From contig NVWO01000010.1 of NCBI GenBank assembly GCA_002746255.1, positions 28,529 to 66,781 of the forward strand: a stretch of DNA of 38,253 nt. The letters are read 5' to 3'. Shown piece by piece: positions 17,031-28,585 of the stretch. The notes under the pieces were generated by a model. The model was not told the DNA's origin. It ran no database searches and saw nothing but the letters and a program-made list of their open reading frames with translations. The position numbers and the translations under genes are program-made. Source of the DNA: Rhodospirillaceae bacterium (GTDB taxonomy: Bacteria; Pseudomonadota; Alphaproteobacteria; GCA-2746255). Each line of letters begins with the position of its first letter. Within the stretch, counting starts at the first letter, position 1.

Positions 17031-18617
17031 TTAGTGGCGGAAGTGGCGCATGCCCGTGAACACCATGGCCAGCCCCTGTTCGTCGGCTGCCGCAATCACT
17101 TCTTTGTCACGGATGGAGCCCCCAGGCTGGATGACGGCGGTGGCGCCTGCTTCGGCTGCCGCCAGCAGGCCGTCCGCAAAGGGGAAAAAGGCGTCGGATG
17201 CCACGACGGAGCCTTGTGCCAGACTTTCTTTCATCCCGGCTATCCGTGCGGCCTCGGACGCCTTGTGGGCGGCGATGCGCGATGAATCGATGCGGCTCAT
17301 CTGGCCTGCGCCGATGCCAACGGTCGCCAGATCCTTCGTATAGACAATGGCATTGGATTTGACATGCTTGGCGATCGTAAAGGCGAAAAGAAGGTCGGCA
17401 AGTTCCTTTTCCGTCGGTTGGCGTTTTGTCACCACCGTGATGTCCTTCTCGTCAATTTGGCCATTGTCGCGGCCTTGAAGCAAAAAGCCGTTTGCAAGAT
17501 CACGAAACGCAAAGCCTGCTTCGGTTGGGTCCGGCATGTCCGTGGTGAGAAGAACGCGCAGGTTTTTTTTTGCCTTTAGGATTTCGCGGGCTTCTTCGTC
17601 TATGTCCGGTGCGATGACGACTTCCATGAAGAGTTTTACGATTTCCTCGGCCGTTGCCGCATCCAGAGTGCGGTTGGTGGCGATGATGCCGCCAAAGGCG
17701 CTCACGGGATCGCAGCGCAGCGCCAGGTCCCAGGCCGTTTTAAGGTTTTCGGCCGTGGCAACGCCGCAGGGGTTCGCGTGTTTGATGATGGCGATGGCGG
17801 GGACGTTGAATTCGGCGACAAGCTCGAAGGCGGCATCCGTGTCGTTCAGATTGTTGTAGCTGAGTTCCTTGCCTTGAATCTGTTTTGCCGTTGCGACGCC
17901 GGGTCGTGGGGCACCATTGACATAAAAGGCGGCTTGCTGATGTGGGTTTTCGCCATAACGGAGCGTCTGGCGCAGCTCGCCCGAGAAAGTGACCCGTCGA
18001 GGGAAATCTTCAGACAGCACGTTCCCGAACCAGTTGCCGATGGCGGAATCATAGGCGGCGGTTCGCTGATAGGCGGTCGCGGCCAGGCGGCGGCGCAGCG
18101 CCAGCGTTGTGGCGCCTTTCGTCTCCGTCATTTCTGCCATGACCGCCGCATAATCCACCGCGTCGGTGATGACGGTGACGAAGGCATGATTTTTCGATGC
18201 CGCGCGAAGCAGCGCCGGTCCGCCGATGTCGATGTTTTCAATGCAGTCGTCAAAGGAAGCGTCCTTCGCAATCGTCTCCTCAAACGGGTAGAGATTGACG
18301 ACCAAAAGGTCGATTGGTGCGATGCCGTGTTTTTTCATCGCGGCGATGTGGGCAGGATCGTCGCGGCGTCCAAGAAGCCCGCCATGAATAAGCGGATGCA
18401 GGGTCTTCACCCGGCCATCAAGAATTTCCGGGAAACCGGTGTGATCCGAAACCTCGGTAACCGGAATGCCCGCGTCCCGTAATTTTTTCGCCGAGCCGCC
18501 GGTGGAGAGGATTTCGACGCCAAAATCGTTAAGAAAACGTCCGAATTCTTCCAGTCCGCTCTTGTCGGAAACGGAAATCAGTGCCCGACGGATGGGGGTA
18601 AGGCGGGGATCAGGCAT
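17031..18617 (-). CDS. purH: PurH, bifunctional AICAR formyltransferase / IMP cyclohydrolase
   Basis: PurH performs the last two steps of purine synthesis: formylation of AICAR with 10-formyl-THF, then closure to IMP. It has 528 residues, the usual length. The N-terminal cyclohydrolase domain shows [30 protein letters not shown] and the signature [14 protein letters not shown]. The C-terminal transformylase domain shows [14 protein letters not shown], the catalytic KHANPCG and [10 protein letters not shown] near the end. The start at 18615-18617 (MPDPRLTP) has GGAG upstream; an in-frame extension to 18698 is not conserved in character. In many alphaproteobacteria purH follows the heparinase-like gene; here the surface-sugar genes come between. 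Confidence 0.97.
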
Positions 18618-18698
18618 GGTATATTCTACTCCGATGCGGTTGGGCTTGGGTGGCTGTGGGAGGCGAGTGTGCCTGAGCGGATTTCTGGCGGCAACCAC

Positions 18699-20642
18699 TC
18701 AGGATGCGGATTCGCGCGTAACGGCGTTTAAGGCCGGTTCCGGCAAGGGCTTTTGTTCCTTGAACTCTGGAACGAGCTTGTTGAGGAACGCCTTTACGTC
18801 GTCCGATTTTCGGGCCTGGCAGAGCCCGGCAAGTTCGTTGAAGGCACGGCCAAGAATTTCGTGATCCGCCGTTCGCGGTGCGGCAAGCAGGATGCCTTTG
18901 CAGGGCGTTTCCACGAGCTTTTCTGAGGCGTGGAAAAGTTCTTCATGCAGTTTCTCACCCGGTCGAAGGCCGGTAAATTCGATGGCAATATCCTTTTCCG
19001 GCTGCAGGCCGGCCAGGCGAATCATCTGTTTGGCCAGATCCAGGATGAAAATCGGCTTGCCCATATCAAGGACGAAAATGCCACCATGTTTTTCGCCCTT
19101 TGTGCCCAGGACAGACGCCTGCAGTACCAATGCGACCGCTTCGCGAACGGTCATGAAATAGCGGCTTATTTCAGGGTGGGTAACGGTTAGCGGGCCTCCC
19201 CGGCGCAGCTGGTTCTGGAAGAGCGGAACAACGGAACCGGTGGAGCCCAGCACGTTGCCAAAACGAACGGTCACAAAGCGCGTGCCATTGCCACAATTTG
19301 CGGCGGCAAGATCGAGGGACTGGCAGTAACTTTCTGCCAGTCGTTTCGTTGCGCCCATGACATTTGTCGGGTTTACCGCCTTATCGGTGGAAATCATGAC
19401 CATCGCGGTAACCCCTGCCTTTTGGCAGGCATCGGCAACGTTGCGGGTGCCGATGGCGTTTGTCAGCACACCTTCGACCGGGTTTTCTTCCACCATGGGA
19501 ACGTGTTTCAGGGCCGCGGCGTGAAAAACAAGATCCGGGGTCTCGCGGGCAAGGACGCTCGCCAGACGGCTGGAATCGCGCACGTCGCCAAGGCGCGCGC
19601 TTCGTGAAATCTTGCCATGGCGCTCCGCAAGCTGCCCATCGATCTGGTAGAGGTTGAACTCACAATTGTCGAACAGGGTTAAATGCGTCGGCGCGTAATC
19701 GGAAATCTGACGGACAAGCTCGGAACCGATGGTGCCGCCGGCCCCGGTAATCAGGATGCGCCGGCCAGCGATCATCTTGCGCATGGCATCCTGATCCAGA
19801 ACGGTTTGCGGACGGCCCAGCAAATCGTCGATTGCGATGGGGCGGATATCAAGGCTTTTGGCGTCGCTCCGCTGGAAATCCGTCAGTCTTGGAAGCCTCG
19901 AAAGGGGCATGCCAAGGCCATCGGCGATGTTGAGAATCTCGCTGATTCTCGCGCCATCAAGGTTTTGTCGTGTAAGGATCAGGCGCTGCGGTCGTTCTCC
20001 CCGGCGTGTCAGCCGTTCGACAGTCTCGGGCAAATTTTCCGGTGTGCCTAGAATGGGGACGCCGCGAATGTTTCGCCCGACCCGGGTTCCCTTCTCATCG
20101 ACAATGCCGACGACGCGATAGGCGGCACCCGCTTCGTGGTCGGTCGCGCGGATAAACATTTCCGTTCCCTCGCCGGTTCCAACAAGAAGAACAGGCACGC
20201 GACGGTAACCATCTCGTTCCAGAAAACGATCAAAACGCCGATCCTTGATCAGGCGGTAGAGAAAGCGGGGCCCTCCAAGAAGAGCCATGAGCACGAACCA
20301 GTTGATTAGAAGAATCGACCGCGGCAAGGCATCAAGGCGTGTGAGCATGAACATGAGCGGCGTGAAAATCAGGATCACAAGCGTGACGGCGCGCGTAATT
20401 GCAACGAGATCGTCAAGCGATGCATAGCGCCAGATTCCGCGGTAGAGCCGCATCGACAAAAACACGCCTGCGGAAACGACAGTGAAGATCGCCATTCCCT
20501 CAAGCAGAAATTCCCGTGCGTAGCTAAACGCGCCATCGCCGAGCCGCAAATAGAGCGAAATCAGGAATGATGCCGCCGCCATGAAGGTGTCATGGGCGAA
20601 GGCGATCCAGGGATGTCCAATGCGTCGGAAAAAATCAGCCAT
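18699..20642 (-). CDS. WbpM/CapD-like nucleoside-diphosphate-sugar 4,6-dehydratase, membrane-bound
   Basis: The 647-residue protein begins with about four membrane helices (residues 12-125). A first Rossmann region (RRVPVLLVGTGEGTEMF) follows, then the catalytic long-SDR domain: ITGAGGTIGSEL (NAD binding, 298-309) and STDKAVNPTNVMGATKR (418-434). The usual catalytic Tyr is Met429 before Lys433, as in the WbpM group with its Ser-Met-Lys triad. These enzymes convert UDP-GlcNAc to the 4-keto-6-deoxy sugar, the entry to QuiNAc or FucNAc. The start MADFFRRIG at 20640-20642 is preferred over a 12-codon extension. It lies at the end of the surface-glycan run, 75 bases after the SDR gene and 81 before purH. 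Confidence 0.93.
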   Translation of the reverse strand: MADFFRRIGHPWIAFAHDTFMAAASFLISLYLRLGDGAFSYAREFLLEGMAIFTVVSAGVFLSMRLYRGIWRYASLDDLVAITRAVTLVILIFTPLMFMLTRLDALPRSILLINWFVLMALLGGPRFLYRLIKDRRFDRFLERDGYRRVPVLLVGTGEGTEMFIRATDHEAGAAYRVVGIVDEKGTRVGRNIRGVPILGTPENLPETVERLTRRGERPQRLILTRQNLDGARISEILNIADGLGMPLSRLPRLTDFQRSDAKSLDIRPIAIDDLLGRPQTVLDQDAMRKMIAGRRILITGAGGTIGSELVRQISDYAPTHLTLFDNCEFNLYQIDGQLAERHGKISRSARLGDVRDSSRLASVLARETPDLVFHAAALKHVPMVEENPVEGVLTNAIGTRNVADACQKAGVTAMVMISTDKAVNPTNVMGATKRLAESYCQSLDLAAANCGNGTRFVTVRFGNVLGSTGSVVPLFQNQLRRGGPLTVTHPEISRYFMTVREAVALVLQASVLGTKGEKHGGIFVLDMGKPIFILDLAKQMIRLAGLQPEKDIAIEFTGLRPGEKLHEELFHASEKLVETPCKGILLAAPRTADHEILGRAFNELAGLCQARKSDDVKAFLNKLVPEFKEQKPLPEPALNAVTRESAS

Positions 20643-20684
20643 GTTTCTCAATCTATGACAGATGGCTAGGGAAAGCATACTGGT

Positions 20685-20702
20685 GGGTGCGGTGTCGCAC
20701 CC
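20685..20702 (-). terminator. Short hairpin between the SDR and dehydratase genes
   Basis: A 7-bp perfect stem (GGGTGCG with CGCACCC) encloses a 4-base loop, 16 bases past the stop of the SDR gene. There is no T-run after it on the minus strand, so it may act only as a weak attenuator or an mRNA-stabilising structure ahead of the dehydratase gene. Confidence 0.35.
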
Positions 20703-20717
20703 GGGAGATTGTCTTTA

Positions 20718-21683
20718 TTATTCGGATTTTCTCTGGTTTTGATACCAGGCGACGGTTTTTTGCAGGCCGTCGTCGAGGGAATGCGGTGGGTACCAGTTAA
20801 GAATGTCGTGAATATGGCGGCCATCCAGGGTAAGGGAGCCCAGCAGGCGGCGCGTCATGCCGCCTTTTCCGATCAGCCAAAGCATGGCCTCCAGCAGTGC
20901 CGGGGGGATCGGTGCCATGACGATTCGCTTCTTCATTTTTTTGGCGATTGCTCTGGCCAGATCGGGTGTTGAGACATCCTCACCATCGCTAACCAGGAAA
21001 GTTTCTCCTGGCGCTTTCGGATGGGTAAGGCAGCGGCCTATGGCGCTTGCAAGATTGTCGGTGCCAATCAGGCTGCGGCGGTTAAAAATATTGCCGAATG
21101 GAAGGGGCAGGCCAAGTTCGCAGAGGCGAAGCAATTGACGAAAATTTCCTTTCACGCCGGGTCCGTAAACCAGAGGTGGGCGAAGGATAACAAGCTCGAC
21201 GCCTGTGTTGTGTGTGATTTTGCGCAGGGCTTCTTCCGCCTCTAATTTTGAAACGCCATAAGGGTCTTCCGGCAGAGGAACGTCCTGTTCCCGATATGGC
21301 TGTGGGCCTTTCCCGTGGACCTTAACGCTGCTTAGGAAAACAAAGCGCCGGACTCTGGCCGCAACGGCCTGTTCGGCCAGGCGCTTTGTGCCTTCGACGT
21401 TCACCCTTCGGTGCGCGGCCAATGGGTCTGGGGCAGGGTCGCGCAGCATGTGGACGCGCGCGGCGAGGTGTACGACCGCGTCGGCTCCCTTCAACAGGGC
21501 TGTCCAGGACGTTTCCGGGCCGATGTCCGTGATTTTCTGAACCGAGATCGCTGGGTCCGGGGCCGATGGGTTAAGGGATTGCGGGCGGCGCATGGCCGCA
21601 ACAACTTGATGCCCGTCCAGGGCGAGAGCCGGGCAAAGCACATGCCCGATCATTCCGTTTGCGCCGGTTACCAAAACGCGCAT
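20718..21683 (-). CDS. NAD-dependent epimerase/4-reductase (SDR), GalE/WbpV/WreQ-like
   Basis: The 321-residue extended SDR has the NAD motif GANGMIG (residues 7-13), the catalytic Ser in FLSSVKVHG (around 118-119) and Tyr142-x3-Lys146 in DPYGVSKLEAE. The sequence also has LRPPLVYGPGVKGNF, typical of sugar epimerases and 4-ketoreductases. Between a WecA/WbpL-like transferase and a WbpM-like dehydratase, reduction of the 4-keto intermediate to UDP-QuiNAc or UDP-FucNAc is the best guess. A plain UDP-hexose 4-epimerase is the alternative. The ATG at 21681-21683 shares its A with the TGA stop of the upstream gene (TGATG), which rules out the much longer open frame that continues through that gene. 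Confidence 0.88.
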   Translation of the reverse strand: MRVLVTGANGMIGHVLCPALALDGHQVVAAMRRPQSLNPSAPDPAISVQKITDIGPETSWTALLKGADAVVHLAARVHMLRDPAPDPLAAHRRVNVEGTKRLAEQAVAARVRRFVFLSSVKVHGKGPQPYREQDVPLPEDPYGVSKLEAEEALRKITHNTGVELVILRPPLVYGPGVKGNFRQLLRLCELGLPLPFGNIFNRRSLIGTDNLASAIGRCLTHPKAPGETFLVSDGEDVSTPDLARAIAKKMKKRIVMAPIPPALLEAMLWLIGKGGMTRRLLGSLTLDGRHIHDILNWYPPHSLDDGLQKTVAWYQNQRKSE

Positions 21684-22696
21684 CAGTTTTTTTCCCGAAA
21701 GGGATTTTGGAGAATTCCAAGCACCATTGCGACCAGCAGAATGGCGACGATGAGGGAAAACCACGGTCGGCCGGTGGAAGCCAGAACGGCAAGCCCGAGA
21801 AGTCCGACATTCGTCGCCAGGACAATTCGCACGACGCCAACGTGACCAAGTCCCCGGCGGCTTGCCAATTGATAAAAGTGGCTGGCATGGGCTTCCCAGA
21901 TGCGCTTGCCTGAGAACAGGCGGCGGATCAGGGTCAGGGTCGAATCCGCGAGATAGTAGAGCGGCAGAATCAGGGCGGCGGCCCAGTGGCCTGCGGTGGC
22001 TAGAGAAAGCAGCAGCCAGCCAAGCAGGAAGCCAAGCGGGATGCTGCCGACATCGCCGAGAAAAATCTTCGCCGGGGGCCAATTCCACGCCAGGAAGCCA
22101 AGCGCCACCGCAGCGATGGTGATCCCTAGATAACAAAGATCCGGCGACAGGCTGCCAAGCAGGGCCACCAGCGCCACGCCAAACCCCAGACTTGCAGTTT
22201 CCACGCCGGCGATGCCGTCGATGCCGTCCATAAAATTAAAGAGATTTAAAAACCAGACCCATAGAAGCCCGGTGGCAATCCGGTCGAGAAGCGGGGGCAA
22301 GATTCCCTGAAAGGTTTCGGCGTTGCTCGGCAGGCTGAAAAGCACGGCGGCAACGGCGATGGCCTGACACAACAGGCGGGGGATGGGGGGCAGCCCGCGA
22401 AGGTCATCGACCCAGGAAATCACCGCCAAAAAGCCGGCAGCGCCAAGTAGAACCCATCGTTCAAGCGTTACGCCGGGATCGGATGGAAAAAAAGTGAAAA
22501 GGATTCCCCAAATCGGCAGCAGGGCCAGCATGACGCCAAGGCCACCGCCGCGCGGGGTGGGCAGGACATGGCTGCTGCGCGGATTCGGGTGGTCGAGAAT
22601 GGCATGGCGACGCAGCAGCCGGTGGGCAAGGCCCGTGCTGGCCCAGGAGGCCAGCACGGCGGCGCCTCCTGCCAGGAGGTATAAAATCCATTCCAT
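21683..22696 (-). CDS. WecA/WbpL-like undecaprenyl-phosphate HexNAc-1-phosphate transferase
   Basis: This polytopic membrane enzyme (337 residues, about 10-11 helices) transfers a sugar-1-phosphate from a UDP-sugar to undecaprenyl phosphate and starts the O-chain. The polyprenol transferase motifs are present: Asp97-Asp98 in SWVDDLRGLP, NLFNFMDGIDG (151-161), the metal-binding FLGD (212-215) and the basic loop EAHASHFYQ with His270 and His273. SSHVLPTPRGGG near residue 41 is also diagnostic. Co-location with the SDR and dehydratase favours a WbpL/WreU-type enzyme using QuiNAc or FucNAc over a housekeeping MraY, which would be larger and lie in the dcw cluster. The ATG at 22694-22696 has only a weak SD. 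Confidence 0.92.
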   Translation of the reverse strand: MEWILYLLAGGAAVLASWASTGLAHRLLRRHAILDHPNPRSSHVLPTPRGGGLGVMLALLPIWGILFTFFPSDPGVTLERWVLLGAAGFLAVISWVDDLRGLPPIPRLLCQAIAVAAVLFSLPSNAETFQGILPPLLDRIATGLLWVWFLNLFNFMDGIDGIAGVETASLGFGVALVALLGSLSPDLCYLGITIAAVALGFLAWNWPPAKIFLGDVGSIPLGFLLGWLLLSLATAGHWAAALILPLYYLADSTLTLIRRLFSGKRIWEAHASHFYQLASRRGLGHVGVVRIVLATNVGLLGLAVLASTGRPWFSLIVAILLVAMVLGILQNPFREKN

Positions 22697-22768: not shown

Positions 22769-23995
22769 CTAGGGTGCCGATTTTGGCGAGGGGGTGGCAT
22801 CCCCTTCCCCGGCAATGCCCAGAAGAATGGCGGCAACAAAGAAAAGCGTCGTAATCCACCATGCCTGCCAGATGCCGTAGCTGAGGGAGGCGGCAACAAT
22901 GCCTGTAACCATGGCACCATTGAAAACAGCATTTGAATAGCGCGCCATTCGCCGTCGCAAGACCATCACAAACAGCCAGACCATGAAGAGGCCGCAGATA
23001 ACAGCGCCAACCAACCCGGTTTCCAGCCACCATTGCATGGCGGCGTTATGTGGGTGCAGGGGCAGAATATCACTACCTTCACCGACGTTCTGGATAAGTC
23101 GCGTACGGTCAGGGATGTTTCGCGATGTGTCGAGACCCCATCCCAGAAGGGGCCTTTCCTCGACGCGCTCGGCGACGAAACGCCAGATATATATTCGATG
23201 GATGGCCGAGGTTGGAAGATTGGGCATCGTTACCCATATTTTCTTGGGATCCGGCAGCAGTGGTGGAAGCCACGGCGCCAGGGCCGTCCCCGCCATGGTG
23301 AGACAAATGAGCGCGATGGCGATCCGCTTTGGAAAACGCAGGGATGGAAGGAAAACAAGCATTCCAAGTAGAAGGGCAAGCAGCGACGCGGCGTTTTCAA
23401 GCTGCGCGAGAACCACAAGGGACAAGACGAAAATCGCTGCCGCAATCCGGAACCGATGCCTTGGGTCGATCCACAGCAGGACCGGCCAGACAAGCAGCGC
23501 AAACACCGTGGTCCAGCGATTGAAAATTGTGTTGTCTGGGGTGCCGATCCCCCAGGATGAACTATATAGATGATAGGTGGCGAGATCCGTCACGACCTCG
23601 ATGGCGATGAACAGGGTAGCAATCCCCATGCCGGCCAGCAGGGCAGGGCCAAGGAGGCTGCGTTCATGAGGCTTGAGATCGCGGGCCCCGGCCAGCAGTA
23701 CCATCCCGCAGGCACCCAGACTGATAAGGTCGAACGCCTGGCTGAGGCTTCTTTCCGGCGCGACGGACCAAAAAGCGGTGACAACCCCCCAGAGGGCGAT
23801 TGCGCCGAAAAAAGCCGCGCCAATCCATGAGATTTTCAAACGCCTGGCGTTCGGACGGAACGAAAGGCCGAGAATTGCCAAGGCCATTAAAATCAGAAGC
23901 GGCGTCAAGAAGCCGGATAGATAGACGGCAAGGGTTGGAAGCAAAAAGGCCGAAATTGCCAACAGATGTCCGTTGTGCAGATCCTGCAGTTTCAT
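22769..23995 (-). CDS. O-antigen ligase/polymerase family (WaaL/Wzy-like) membrane protein
   Basis: The 408-residue protein has about ten to twelve hydrophobic helices and one large periplasmic loop. The loop contains IYIWRFVAERVEERPLLGWG and LPLHPHNAAMQWWLETG, the Arg/His pattern of the Wzy_C/O-antigen ligase family. It could be the WaaL ligase joining O-chain to lipid A-core, or a Wzy polymerase; the family does not separate these by sequence alone. The start MKLQDLHNG at 23993-23995 overlaps the FkbM stop (ATGA). A 33-codon extension is open but lies in that gene. A 72-base gap separates it from the following transferase gene. Confidence 0.88.
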   Translation of the reverse strand: MKLQDLHNGHLLAISAFLLPTLAVYLSGFLTPLLILMALAILGLSFRPNARRLKISWIGAAFFGAIALWGVVTAFWSVAPERSLSQAFDLISLGACGMVLLAGARDLKPHERSLLGPALLAGMGIATLFIAIEVVTDLATYHLYSSSWGIGTPDNTIFNRWTTVFALLVWPVLLWIDPRHRFRIAAAIFVLSLVVLAQLENAASLLALLLGMLVFLPSLRFPKRIAIALICLTMAGTALAPWLPPLLPDPKKIWVTMPNLPTSAIHRIYIWRFVAERVEERPLLGWGLDTSRNIPDRTRLIQNVGEGSDILPLHPHNAAMQWWLETGLVGAVICGLFMVWLFVMVLRRRMARYSNAVFNGAMVTGIVAASLSYGIWQAWWITTLFFVAAILLGIAGEGDATPSPKSAP

Positions 23996-24813
23996 GACAA
24001 CCGCGCCCCTCGGGAAGGGTGAAGAAAGAAATAATCGCGCCACGGCTCGTCTATGACGGCATCGACGCGTTGCGGCTTCCCGTCTTTCAGGCAATAGGCT
24101 TCATAGCCGCGTGACAGGAAAAAATCAAAAACCGCTTCCTTCGATGCGTTGAAATTTTTTTCAAGGGCGTGGGGATGGATTTCGATGAGGGCATTTGGAA
24201 GGTCGCGGTCAATTATTTTTTTACCTCCGTTCAGAACCTTGTATTCCGCACCTTCGACGTCGCACCGTAGAAAATCGATTTTTTCGATTCCGTTGCGTTC
24301 GCAAAAGGAGTCGAGGGTGATCGCTTGCGTGGATTCCGCTATCATGTCTTTTGCCTGAACGCCAGGAAAGGACGTGGTGTTTTCTTCGTTCCCGTCCTCG
24401 GTCACGTGGCCAAAAGAATGTCCAAGACGACCGCTTGTCTTCACCGGCACGACGAGCTTGACCTCACCCGGGCAATCCATGACGGCAACGTGAAAGCAGC
24501 TTACATTTCCAAGCCGATGAAAGGCGAGCACGCGCCTTAAAATTTCAAAGCTGTAGCTTGAGGGTTCGAAACAGTAGACATGCCCGCGCTCTGCCAGGCG
24601 GGCCATGATCAGGCTATGCCTGCCATCGCTGGCACCGACATGGAGGCAGATATCCTCTGACCGGATCATGTCCTTTAAAAAGGCGACTTCGGGTTCGAAT
24701 TTATACTGGCGAAGATTTCTGGAAATCACGCGGGCTGTTGCCATCCATGACCGCATGCGCGTGCCAAGCTTTGTCTGGATGGTGCTGTTTGACGACAAGG
24801 GACGGCCTCGCAT
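23992..24813 (-). CDS. FkbM-family SAM-dependent methyltransferase
   Basis: The 273-residue protein has a class I methyltransferase core. Motif I is CLHVGASDGRHSLIMA, followed by the acidic HVYCFEPSS strand, and motif ITLDSFCERNGIEKIDFLRC leads into DVEGAEYKVLNGG, the FkbM signature. FkbM members O-methylate sugars or polyketides; next to an O-antigen ligase, a surface-glycan sugar is the likely substrate. The ATG at 24811-24813 shares a base with the heparinase stop (TGATG). A GTG 12 codons upstream would overlap that gene further. The stop overlaps the ligase start as ATGA. Confidence 0.9.
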   Translation of the reverse strand: MRGRPLSSNSTIQTKLGTRMRSWMATARVISRNLRQYKFEPEVAFLKDMIRSEDICLHVGASDGRHSLIMARLAERGHVYCFEPSSYSFEILRRVLAFHRLGNVSCFHVAVMDCPGEVKLVVPVKTSGRLGHSFGHVTEDGNEENTTSFPGVQAKDMIAESTQAITLDSFCERNGIEKIDFLRCDVEGAEYKVLNGGKKIIDRDLPNALIEIHPHALEKNFNASKEAVFDFFLSRGYEAYCLKDGKPQRVDAVIDEPWRDYFFLHPSRGARLS

Positions 24814-26540
24814 CAGGCTGCGCGCGCAGGAATGCGCTTGAACGTCCACTTCACCCGGACGGCATTGCTTTCCAGGGGGGCGCTGACGACGATCTGTTCG
24901 CTGTGATGCATTTCACGCGCGTCGCCGAGATAGACATTTTTTTCGAGATTTATCACGCCGCCAACTGCCTGAAATTTCCAGCCACCACCTTTGGGAAGGC
25001 GCAGGAGAACGGTAACGCCATCCCGTGCCAGTGAAGCGGAAACATTTGGGTGCAAGAGAAAGCGGATGTCAAATTTTGATCCCTTTTCTCCTTCCAGACA
25101 ATCTTCGCCGCGAAAATCCTCTCCATTCGCCGAGAGGTAAAGCCGCCGATGGTGTGTGCGGCCAAAGAGCGCCTGATAGCCGTCATGGCTTGTTTCAATC
25201 CAGATGTTGCCATCTTTTTCATCCCGGCAACAGGTTGCGCGGTGGGGCCGCCGTCCGATTCTGCCATCGGAGAGAATCTCGGATGAATTTTTATCGTCGA
25301 TCGTTACGGTCGAATGGGCAGCGGTTGAACGGATGGGGTCACGCCAGGCATCTTTATTTCCAACATAGGCGCCGCCATTTACGACGAGGCGCTCCTTGCC
25401 GCAGCTCATCTCGAAGGAAAGGGTTCCAGCGTGGGTTTGCTGGGTTCCGGGCGGGGCCGGCTCTGGCACGCCGACGTCGAAGAGAAGAAGCGTGCGCCCG
25501 GCAACCAGGCGTTCGAAACCGGCATAAGGCGTGCTTTCCGGGGGGCTGCCCTGGGCGTCGGCACGCCCCAGCACCATGTCGATCAACCAGCTTTCGCCTT
25601 CGCAAGTGCCATTGAACAGCGCCAGCCCGCCATCGCCGTGGCGAAAGAAACGCAACATGACGCCCATGCGGTCCGTTGCCGATTGCAATATGTCAGGTAC
25701 CTCGCGATGGGTAGCCATGAGAAGGGCGCGGATCTCCGCAAGGTCGCGAAGGACCGCAAGCTGGACCTCGGGGCTTCGAAGAATGTGCCCGCCATCTGGA
25801 TAGATCTGTCTGGGCAGCTCTTTTTCAAGAAGCTGCAGGCCGTTTTGAAGGGCAAATTCGTGTTTTGCCGAAACCGCTCCGGCGTAGATCAGCCCTTTTG
25901 CAACGGCGAAGAGGGAGGGTCCCTGCAGGTGCCCGGGAGCTACGCGGTGGAGATGCCGTGCCTGGCGCGCAAAGGAAGTCAGAAAAATTGCACGAAAGCT
26001 GTCGGGTGCGCCGGCGCAGAGAAAATCACCATGCCCTGCCCAGGCGGCCATGCGTGTGCCAAGCACGTCCGCCCGCCAGCTGGTTGGATGCCAGAAACGG
26101 TTGTGCGCGATCCAGTCGAGGACGAGGTCGCGTGCCCTGCGGCGTGCGGTGTCAGTGCCGATCGTGCGCAGGTCGCGAAGCCAGGCAAAGCCATGAAGTT
26201 CGGCCAGCCAGCGTGTGTCCACATCATCCCTGTTCCAGAGATTGGTTTTGGCCCGGATCGTGGTGCCCAGGAAGGGGAAGGTGTTTTGCAGGATGGCTTC
26301 ACCGCGTTCCCGGTCGCCTGGCCATGGGTCTGGCGGAATCCCGTTTAGTCGCCTTGGTGTTCTGCCTGTCAGAAAAATAAAATAGAGGGGGTTCCCGTAA
26401 AGAAGGCGGTCAACGCTGCCCAGAATTCTTTGGAGGAAACGATGGAACGTGCCGTTGAAAACCGGCTTCCCCGAACCCGTGTGCGTATAGCGTGCCGTCC
26501 GCTCAATGGTGGTTTCTTCAAATCCGTCTGGAGGCGACAT
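24813..26540 (-). CDS. Heparinase II/III family protein
   Basis: The 575-residue protein has an alpha/alpha-toroid N-terminal half and a beta-sandwich Hepar_II_III C-terminal half. Conserved landmarks include [53 protein letters not shown] and [20 protein letters not shown] followed by [14 protein letters not shown]. This is the alphaproteobacterial heparinase-like protein found beside rsmB and purH. Its substrate is unknown, and a role in acidic polysaccharide turnover or export is inferred. The start is either 26540 (MSPPDG) or 26549 (MGPMS), inside the end of rpe in another frame. The long open extension beyond is rpe read in the wrong frame. No clear signal peptide is visible. Confidence 0.88.
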
Positions 26541-27204
26541 CGGACCCATTCCGCAGGAGCTGAATGTTTGTGGCGTAATGGTCGGGTCCGCCCTTAAAGG
26601 TGGCGGTTCCGGCGACGAGAAGATCGGCTCCCGCCGCGATGGCTTCGGCGGCGGTTTCAACATTGATACCGCCATCGACTTCAAGGGCAATATCGCGGCC
26701 AATGGCATCGATATTCTCCCGAAGATCACGGATTTTTTTCAATTGCGAGCGAAGGAAGGCCTGTCCGCCGAACCCCGGGTTCACGGCCATGACAAGCACC
26801 AGGTCGATTTCCTCAAAGACATTTTCCATGGCTGCGATGGGGGTGCCTGGATTTAAGGCGACGCCGGCTTTCTTGCCAAAGGATTTAATCAGTTGAAGGG
26901 TCCGGTGGAGGTGCGGTCCCGATTCGGGGTGGACGGTGATGATGTCGGCACCCGCTTCGGTAAAGGCCGCAATATAGGGATCGGCGGGGCGGATCATCAG
27001 GTGGACATCGAAAGGCAAATCCGTATGCGGGCGCAATGCCGCCACGACCGCCGGGCCAATGGTAAGGTTCGGGACAAAATGGCCGTCCATGATGTCGATG
27101 TGGATGCAATCGGCCCCCGCCGCGTCGATTGCCCGAATTTCCTCGCCTAATTTTGCGAAATCGGCGGAGAGGATGGATGGGGCGATCCGCGTGGGGTGTT
27201 GCAT
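26518..27204 (-). CDS. rpe: Ribulose-phosphate 3-epimerase
   Basis: Rpe interconverts ribulose-5-phosphate and xylulose-5-phosphate in the pentose phosphate or Calvin pathways. The 228-residue TIM barrel shows [33 protein letters not shown] with the metal-ligand His and Asp, [18 protein letters not shown] and the final [19 protein letters not shown] phosphate-binding segment. The ATG at 27202-27204 is preceded by AGGAAAA. It lies 79 bases after rsmB and its 3' end overlaps the heparinase start by about 20 bases, so the three probably form one transcript. There are no other pentose-cycle or Calvin genes nearby, so a general metabolic role is likeliest. Confidence 0.96.
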
Positions 27205-27283: not shown

Positions 27284-28585
27284 TTACGGCGTTTTGCGGT
27301 CTTTTCGAAGGCGGACGGCGTAGAATCCGTCGAGACCGCCCAGCGCTTTGAAATGTGAGGGGAGGGTGCGCAAATCGCCCTGGGGCGTGAGCAATTCGCG
27401 TCTGTCTCCAACTTCCCCGGCGGCAATCGGCACACGCGTGAATGGGGCACCCCCCGCCAGCAGGGCGTCGATCTGTTCCACACCTTCTTGCGGTTCAAGG
27501 GAACAGACCGCGTAAACGAGAAGGCCGCCGGGTGCGGTCATCGCGGCGGCGGCTTTCAGCAGCCGGGCCTGGAGGGCGCATAATTTTTTAACGTCGGCGG
27601 GTGTTTTCTGCCAGGCAATGTCGGGGTGGCGCCGGAGGGTTCCGGTCCCGCTACAGGGCGGGTCGAGAAGGACAAAGGCGGCTGGATTTTCTGGCCGCCA
27701 GGTGGTCGCATCTGCTGCGATCGTTTCAAGGTTTAGATGAAGGCGGGAAAAATTTTCGTGAACGCGCACAAGGCGGGAACGTGAACGATCCACGGCAAGA
27801 ACATGTGCGCCACGGTCGGCGAGTTGGGCCGCCTTGCCACCGGGTGCCGCGCAAAGGTCCAGGACAGTCGCGCCGTGCACATCGCCAAGAAGTTTTGCCG
27901 GGATTGCCGCCGCGCCATCCTGCACCCACCAGCTTCCTTCTGCGTAGCCGGCCAGCGCATCTACGCGGCCATGGGTGTACAGCCGGAAGCTTCCCGTCGG
28001 CAGGGGTGTCGCGCCAAGCGCTTCGGCCTGGTCCTCCATTCCCTTTCGGAAGCTAAGATCCAGGGGTGCTTCCTGAAGATGGGCGCTGGCGATGGCCCGG
28101 CAGGTTGTCTTTCCGTAAGCACGCTCCCAGGATTTCCAAAGCCATGCCGGCGTGTTCAGGCGTGGGGCATCGAGGCTGTCGAGCAAGTCCTTTCCCTCGC
28201 GCGTCAGGCGGCGAAGCACGGCGTTTACCAGTCCCTTGTAAGAGGCAAGCGGCGTGGCGTGGAGAAGGGTGACGCTTTGATCGACGGTGGCATGGGGAGG
28301 TGTGTCTAGAAAACAAAGCTGCGTGATGCCGATCTGCAACAGGTGTTGCACCGGCCTTGCTTTGTGCGGCAATGGTTTTTCGAGTGCGTGGTCGATCAGG
28401 GTGTTGATTTCGCCAAGATGGCGAAGAGTCGTGCCGACAAGGTTGCGAACAAAGGCCCGGTCTCGGGGTTCAAGCGCTGCAATGCCACCATGGCTCGCGA
28501 AGCCCTCTTCGAGGGGCGTTTTTCGTGCAAGCACGGCACCAAGAAGTTCAATGGCGCATTGTCGCGAGTTTGGAAAAGTGCTCAT
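27284..28585 (-). CDS. rsmB: 16S rRNA m5C967 methyltransferase RsmB
   Basis: RsmB methylates C967 of 16S rRNA. The 433-residue product has an N-terminal NusB-like RNA-binding domain (about residues 5-130, with LEPRDRAFVRNLVGTTLRHLG and NAVLRRLTREG). The C-terminal methyltransferase has the SAM motif VLDLCAAPGGKAAQLA (241-256), the acidic VLAVDRS strand, and the two RNA m5C cysteines: Cys311 in DPPCSGTGTLRRHPD and Cys361 in AVCSLEPQEG. Both catalytic positions are intact. It heads the long minus-strand run and is divergent from the SDHAF4 gene, 54 bases away. Confidence 0.95.
   Translation of the reverse strand: MSTFPNSRQCAIELLGAVLARKTPLEEGFASHGGIAALEPRDRAFVRNLVGTTLRHLGEINTLIDHALEKPLPHKARPVQHLLQIGITQLCFLDTPPHATVDQSVTLLHATPLASYKGLVNAVLRRLTREGKDLLDSLDAPRLNTPAWLWKSWERAYGKTTCRAIASAHLQEAPLDLSFRKGMEDQAEALGATPLPTGSFRLYTHGRVDALAGYAEGSWWVQDGAAAIPAKLLGDVHGATVLDLCAAPGGKAAQLADRGAHVLAVDRSRSRLVRVHENFSRLHLNLETIAADATTWRPENPAAFVLLDPPCSGTGTLRRHPDIAWQKTPADVKKLCALQARLLKAAAAMTAPGGLLVYAVCSLEPQEGVEQIDALLAGGAPFTRVPIAAGEVGDRRELLTPQGDLRTLPSHFKALGGLDGFYAVRLRKDRKTP

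Follow-up and report, generated by a model that had tools for sequence, protein, structure and literature searches.

Three consecutive genes beside purH in a Rhodospirillaceae genome probably encode enzymes that make the first sugar of a lipid-linked surface glycan and load it onto its carrier. They lie in a 38,253-nucleotide stretch of contig NVWO01000010.1 (positions 28,529 to 66,781; hereafter the window), where open reading frames and Pfam matches identify three complete minus-strand genes that fill positions 18699-22696, the trio that an earlier note on this DNA had described. In transcription order they specify a WecA/WbpL-like polyprenyl-phosphate N-acetylhexosamine-1-phosphate transferase (21683..22696; 337 aa; PF00953, 2e-31), a short-chain dehydrogenase/reductase (SDR; 20718..21683; 321 aa; PF01370, 3e-36) predicted from tree and motifs to be a 4-keto-sugar reductase of the WbpV/WbjF clade, and a predicted WbpM/PglF-like UDP-N-acetylglucosamine (UDP-GlcNAc) 4,6-dehydratase (18699..20678; 659 aa with an N-terminal membrane part; PF02719, 6.9e-112, and CoA_binding_3). 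In a minus-strand TGATG overlap (21681..21685), one base belongs both to the stop codon of the transferase gene and to the start of the SDR gene, an ATG at 21683; the TTG listed as its start, at 22136, makes the frame too long. A gap of 39 bp separates the SDR and dehydratase genes.

In the pathway that we propose, the dehydratase would convert UDP-GlcNAc to UDP-2-acetamido-2,6-dideoxy-D-xylo-4-hexulose, retaining the D configuration at C5, and the SDR would reduce the 4-keto group to give N-acetyl-D-quinovosamine (D-QuiNAc) or N-acetyl-D-fucosamine (D-FucNAc). The transferase would then join the sugar 1-phosphate to the carrier undecaprenyl phosphate. Extension of the chain would fall to further transferases encoded outside the cluster, and a WaaL-like protein would ligate the finished product, with O antigen on lipid A-core as the most likely outcome. 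The gene set itself is of a known kind, the WbpV-WbpL-WbpM type, and is mostly ordinary. Three features are new: the set keeps its place beside purH, its SDR clade is tied to transferases of two superfamilies, and numerous WecA-WbpM pairs have no SDR beside them.

Dehydratase and transferase

The dehydratase carries the signature of the WbpM/PglF group. Its best solved relative is WlaL/PglF (5bju, 5.7e-80), it is 38% identical to the Pseudomonas WbpM-like protein, and it falls short of the cut-offs for the inverting-type equivalogs PseB (187.7 of 407.75 bits) and FnlA (142.3 of 730 bits). STDK at 430-433 (T431, D432, K433), M441 and K445, within STDKAVNPTNVMGATK, match TDK...Mx3K (TDKxnMx3K in place of Yx3K), which the motif table excerpted from a review gives as the WbpM/PglF signature (PMC8987622). 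The Ser-Met-Lys triad named in the earlier note is present as Ser430, Met441 and Lys445; a role for the methionine as catalytic base is not supported, the same excerpt assigning PglF chemistry to Thr-Asp and Lys, not Met (PMC8987622). A second strong PF02719 gene in the source genome (G000 C1:315805-316620, 337.7 bits) is perhaps PseB-like.

PglF serves an amination route in Campylobacter jejuni, and its standing as the closest solved dehydratase would suit a pathway in which the 4-keto sugar is aminated instead, toward bacillosamine or 4-amino-QuiNAc (QuiNAc4N). We consider this fate highly improbable: a search confined to the cluster found no aminotransferase or acetyltransferase, and the adjacent SDR belongs to a reductase clade.

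The transferase is the only PF00953 gene in the source genome besides one MraY-like gene. It has the motifs DDLRG (97), DGIDG (157), GDVGS (214) and HASHFYQ (270), acidic and histidine motifs whose functional sense we take to be that of the WecA/WbpL family, and it shares 36-38% identity with Pseudomonas WbpL. It does not reach the WecA equivalog cut-off TIGR02380 (54.2 of 326.05 bits), a model on which a Pseudomonas WbpL itself scores only 76.7 bits. WbpL is described, in the part of the source available, as starting chains with D-FucNAc or D-QuiNAc (PMC3726653).

The SDR and its clade

The SDR groups with reductases of Pseudomonas O-antigen synthesis rather than with UDP-hexose 4-epimerases, the comparison that the earlier note had proposed as a check. 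In a 65-row tree (bootstrap not fully settled; the partial L037 and WreQ left out) it sits in a 45-row clade, support 98/98, with the SDRs of two Pseudomonas aeruginosa O-antigen clusters, the WbpV label of the reference resting on gene order. Escherichia coli GalE, GnaB (TviC type) and O157 Gnu fall outside. Tyr142, Lys146 and Ser118 are invariant across 29 aligned rows, and identity is 45% to the WbjF type, 44% to the WbpV type and 25% to Gnu. In the excerpt available, the WbpV group is clade C of Cunneen et al., with WbpV the sole known member there (PMC3682973).

The Pseudomonas SDRs of the O6-like and O11-like clusters are 56% alike; that of the window is 44% and 45% identical to them, so sequence does not decide between QuiNAc and FucNAc. 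We assign these serotype labels by gene order and presume the sugars that go with them. D-QuiNAc is given as the first residue in the O6 strain PAK in the accessible part of PMC4773840.

An alternative identity for the SDR is a 4-epimerase of the GalE, Gne or Gnu type, yielding an N-acetylgalactosamine (GalNAc)-type first sugar while WbpM serves another route. Its Pfam matches are family-level Epimerase matches, and Gnu is described as working on a lipid-linked sugar (PMC3682973, in part). The SDR clade has no solved structure at 1e-40 and the solved folds nearest to the window protein are 4-epimerases and dehydratases, two points that weigh against a reductase; the model is good (predicted local distance difference test, pLDDT, 93.7), yet fold matches cannot separate reductase from epimerase. 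We nevertheless judge an epimerase very improbable. Every GalE, GnaB and Gnu reference lies outside the clade, on which ground we rejected a GalE/Gne/Gnu identity, and the low identity to Gnu agrees with this. The SDR also misses the curated galE cut-off (61.5 of 262.3 bits), and the source genome carries a separate GalE-like gene.

Gene neighbourhoods point the same way. Clade SDRs occur in 53 of 386 genomes of the class (threshold 1e-40), and we examined 50 class loci, that is, 54 class matches minus the unfetched G086 and G125, with the window and the split G003 contigs also outside the set. A WbpM-like gene lies within 2.5 kb of the SDR in 31 of them, which argues against an epimerase; a WecA-like gene lies within 2 kb in 32, and 25 have both.

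Members of the clade keep company with enzymes of chain initiation. A phosphoglycosyl transferase lies within 2 kb in 28 of 43 clade loci (18 WecA-like, 10 PglC-like) and in 1 of 47 control loci with non-clade SDRs from the same search; the hidden Markov models behind these counts, as behind those in the 50 class loci above and the purH-site surveys and distance comparison below, were partly built from clade loci, a bias that favours clade loci over the control. The 43 leave out L087 and L088, whose SDRs are partial, and retain L093, the most divergent row. In Psychrobacter lutiphocae the SDR and a PglC-type transferase form one fused protein (L082:511-2070). Together, neighbours and fusion tie the clade to chain initiation with either transferase superfamily. 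Separately, a Deinococcus ficus plasmid match is annotated as a similar SDR-transferase hybrid, and an unannotated SDR relative on Rhizobium leguminosarum pSK03 (L143:6001-6937), frame-shifted near its 3' end, lies between a major facilitator superfamily gene and murB.

A conserved site beside purH

The trio occupies a site that recurs across the class. On its right is purH (17031..18698; NF002049, 775 bits against a cut-off of 402; start probably the ATG at 18617), and its left border is a heparinase II/III-like gene (24813..26729; PF07940, 1.3e-63), beyond which lie rpe, for ribulose-phosphate 3-epimerase (26518..27204; TIGR01163, 289 bits against 212.6), and an rsmB-like 16S rRNA methyltransferase gene (27284..28585; PF01189, PF01029), all on the minus strand. 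The order rsmB-rpe-heparinase-FkbM-ligase-WecA-SDR-WbpM-purH is intact in another genome of the genus (G001); in G003 it is broken up over two contigs. The locus was not found in G002, an absence that cannot be interpreted in a 91%-complete genome that lacks purH as well. Across the 50 class loci, purH adjoins WbpM in 18, which span seven family codes (f1, f84, f99, f100, f107, f127, f129), and the purH-WbpM arrangement also occurs in L042 (G005, another family code) and in the Rhodospirillaceae locus L079. A literature search confined to open-licence papers and chosen terms returned no report of a purH-heparinase-glycan site.

Surveying from purH outward revealed many sites without the SDR. 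Of 104 genomes searched for purH, 80 yielded it; in the 75 upstream stretches that we fetched, the gene directly upstream is WbpM in 20, a heparinase gene in 24, a heparinase gene with a gap in 8 and neither in 20, with 3 stretches too short. Counting G000, G001, G088, G103 and G104, WbpM lies upstream of purH in 25 of the 80 genomes. At 14 of the 20 survey sites WbpM has a WecA-like gene directly beside it, and at 6 a relative of the window ligase lies nearby; a clade SDR is near WbpM in 0 of the 20. At the threshold used, the clade SDR is absent from 17 of the 20 genomes; G046, G087 and G109 have one elsewhere. The WecA-WbpM pairs without an adjacent SDR are those of L213, L216, L218, L221, L222, L229, L230, L231, L240, L256, L265, L268, L270 and L282. 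The heparinase-like gene, for its part, borders purH directly in the 24 stretches even with no glycan genes between.

Distances suggest how the site was inherited. In the 21 loci that have purH, WbpM and the SDR, distances correlate with those of purH at r 0.82 for WbpM and 0.64 for the SDR, and 0 of 2000 permutations were as high; with heparinase as the yardstick, r = 0.86 (11 loci). From these correlations, the dehydratase and transferase look mostly co-inherited with purH, and the SDR less strictly so.

Order of reduction and transfer

The same enzymes might act in another order, with the 4-keto sugar loaded first and the SDR reducing it on the lipid; we hold this to be a lesser though sizeable possibility. 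It would suit an SDR that neighbours transferases of two unrelated superfamilies (28/43 against 1/47) and in L082 forms a single protein with such a transferase, the stop-start overlap of the two genes in the window, and the WecA-WbpM pairs that stand at purH without an adjacent SDR (14/20). A 2017 study by Li and Noel, going by its title, reportedly places the Rhizobium etli reduction on the lipid-linked sugar. Against this, in vitro WreQ is described as accepting the UDP sugar as well (PMC4514872, in part), and co-localisation of SDR and transferase fits either order.

More doubtful still, and offered tentatively, is a broader scheme in which WecA-WbpM at the heparinase-purH junction would be an old, mostly vertical initiation module that loads 4-keto-6-deoxy-GlcNAc on undecaprenyl phosphate. 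The finishing enzyme at the lipid stage would then vary by lineage, being the WbpV-clade SDR in the window and an enzyme of another or unknown kind in SDR-less genomes. Whether reduction precedes or follows lipid linkage can be tested on several naturally occurring versions, some that have the SDR and some that lack it. Many families of the class have the site beside purH, which provides a simple marker for that portion of glycan assembly which stays constant, and the trio gives a testable first-sugar prediction for the surface glycan of a little-known, small-genome lineage.

Neighbouring genes and the end product

Two further genes of the site lie between the heparinase gene and the trio. A Wzy_C family protein (22769..23995, minus strand; PF04932, 2.2e-14) is predicted to be a WaaL-like ligase, and an FkbM-family methyltransferase (23992..24849, minus strand; PF05050, 1.8e-21; fkbM_fam, 101.8 bits against a cut-off of 37.7) has a possible alternative start at ATG 24813. 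Both had been said to follow the trio, which is true by coordinate; in transcription they precede it, the order being FkbM, ligase, transferase, SDR, dehydratase and purH, with the heparinase-like, rpe and rsmB genes upstream of FkbM. That the FkbM enzyme O-methylates the glycan is a family-level guess. A promoter scan gave 1 site, below the count in shuffled sequences, and predicted terminators matched the shuffled sequences.

The predicted ligase would favour O antigen as the end product. The AlphaFold model of the Wzy_C protein (pLDDT 86.6) has WaaL 7tpg as its only significant PDB match (E 2.4e-4, template modelling score, TM, 0.59; no polymerase was folded as a control), consistent with the ligase-like neighbour of the earlier note. 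The source genome has six Wzy_C genes, this one included, and the HPHN and WQxWW motifs of the window protein are absent from the five others. Two PglC-type (Bac_transf) initiators lie elsewhere in the genome, in the C2 and C9 clusters, where Wzy_C genes and genes of Wzz or BY-kinase type also occur. The glycan could instead be a capsule, an exopolysaccharide or protein-linked, with the Wzy_C protein a polymerase or protein ligase. The family spans ligases and polymerases, and the number of Wzy_C genes and the two Wzz/BY-kinase clusters would fit such a product. We think this unlikely, since those clusters possess their own initiators and the window protein differs from theirs and matches WaaL in its model.

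Several observations weigh against the proposed function as a whole. The WaaL fold match alone does not discriminate a ligase from a Wzy polymerase, and the two other polysaccharide clusters each come with a PglC-type initiator of their own. Wzx, Wzz and extending transferases were not found in the window cluster. Fifteen of the 43 clade loci have no transferase within 2 kb. In Acinetobacter baumannii, PSgc5 is described as having wbpV and wbpL and a polymer without the matching sugar (PMC3726653, in part). With these points counted, a trio that makes and loads D-QuiNAc or D-FucNAc is still the probable reading.

Comparison with known systems

A close parallel is the wbpV/wbjF-wbpL-wbpM set of the O6-like and O11-like O-specific antigen (OSA) clusters of P. 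aeruginosa. The same three families are tightly linked there, including a WbpL-type PF00953 transferase and a WbpM-like dehydratase, and the SDRs share one clade. The likeness to wbpV/K-wbpL-wbpM drawn in the earlier note stands for families and linkage and fails for gene order, which is SDR-WbpL-WbpM in Pseudomonas and WecA-SDR-WbpM in the window. The Pseudomonas trio also forms part of a complete O-antigen cluster that includes Wzz, a flippase and transferases, whereas the window trio adjoins purH without those. The P. aeruginosa plasmids pPALO11 and pHOU1-1 (L148, L149) carry whole O-antigen clusters alongside neighbouring chromosomal genes, among them rpsA and ihfB.

Rhizobium etli wreQ/wreU/wreV, the other parallel drawn, shares the predicted chemistry. 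On p42b, in genes that we take to be wreU and wreV, the transferase and dehydratase are adjacent; the dehydratase is 39% identical to that of the window, and an O-antigen ligase family gene adjoins it. The resemblance ends with the R. etli transferase, which is PglC-type and of a superfamily unrelated to the WecA-type window enzyme, and with the SDR, which adjoins both partners in the window while no clade SDR lies in the 26 kb of p42b examined.

Gnu, the undecaprenyl diphosphate-GlcNAc 4-epimerase, is likewise an SDR serving the first sugar of a lipid-linked glycan, from outside the clade of the window enzyme. In organisation, the window locus resembles the wbpK-wbpL-wbpM mini-clusters of plant-associated Pseudomonas, in which two or three conserved genes are described as keeping one position, with the other O-antigen genes elsewhere (PMC6804347, in part). 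Those mini-clusters occupy a different chromosomal site in different bacteria.
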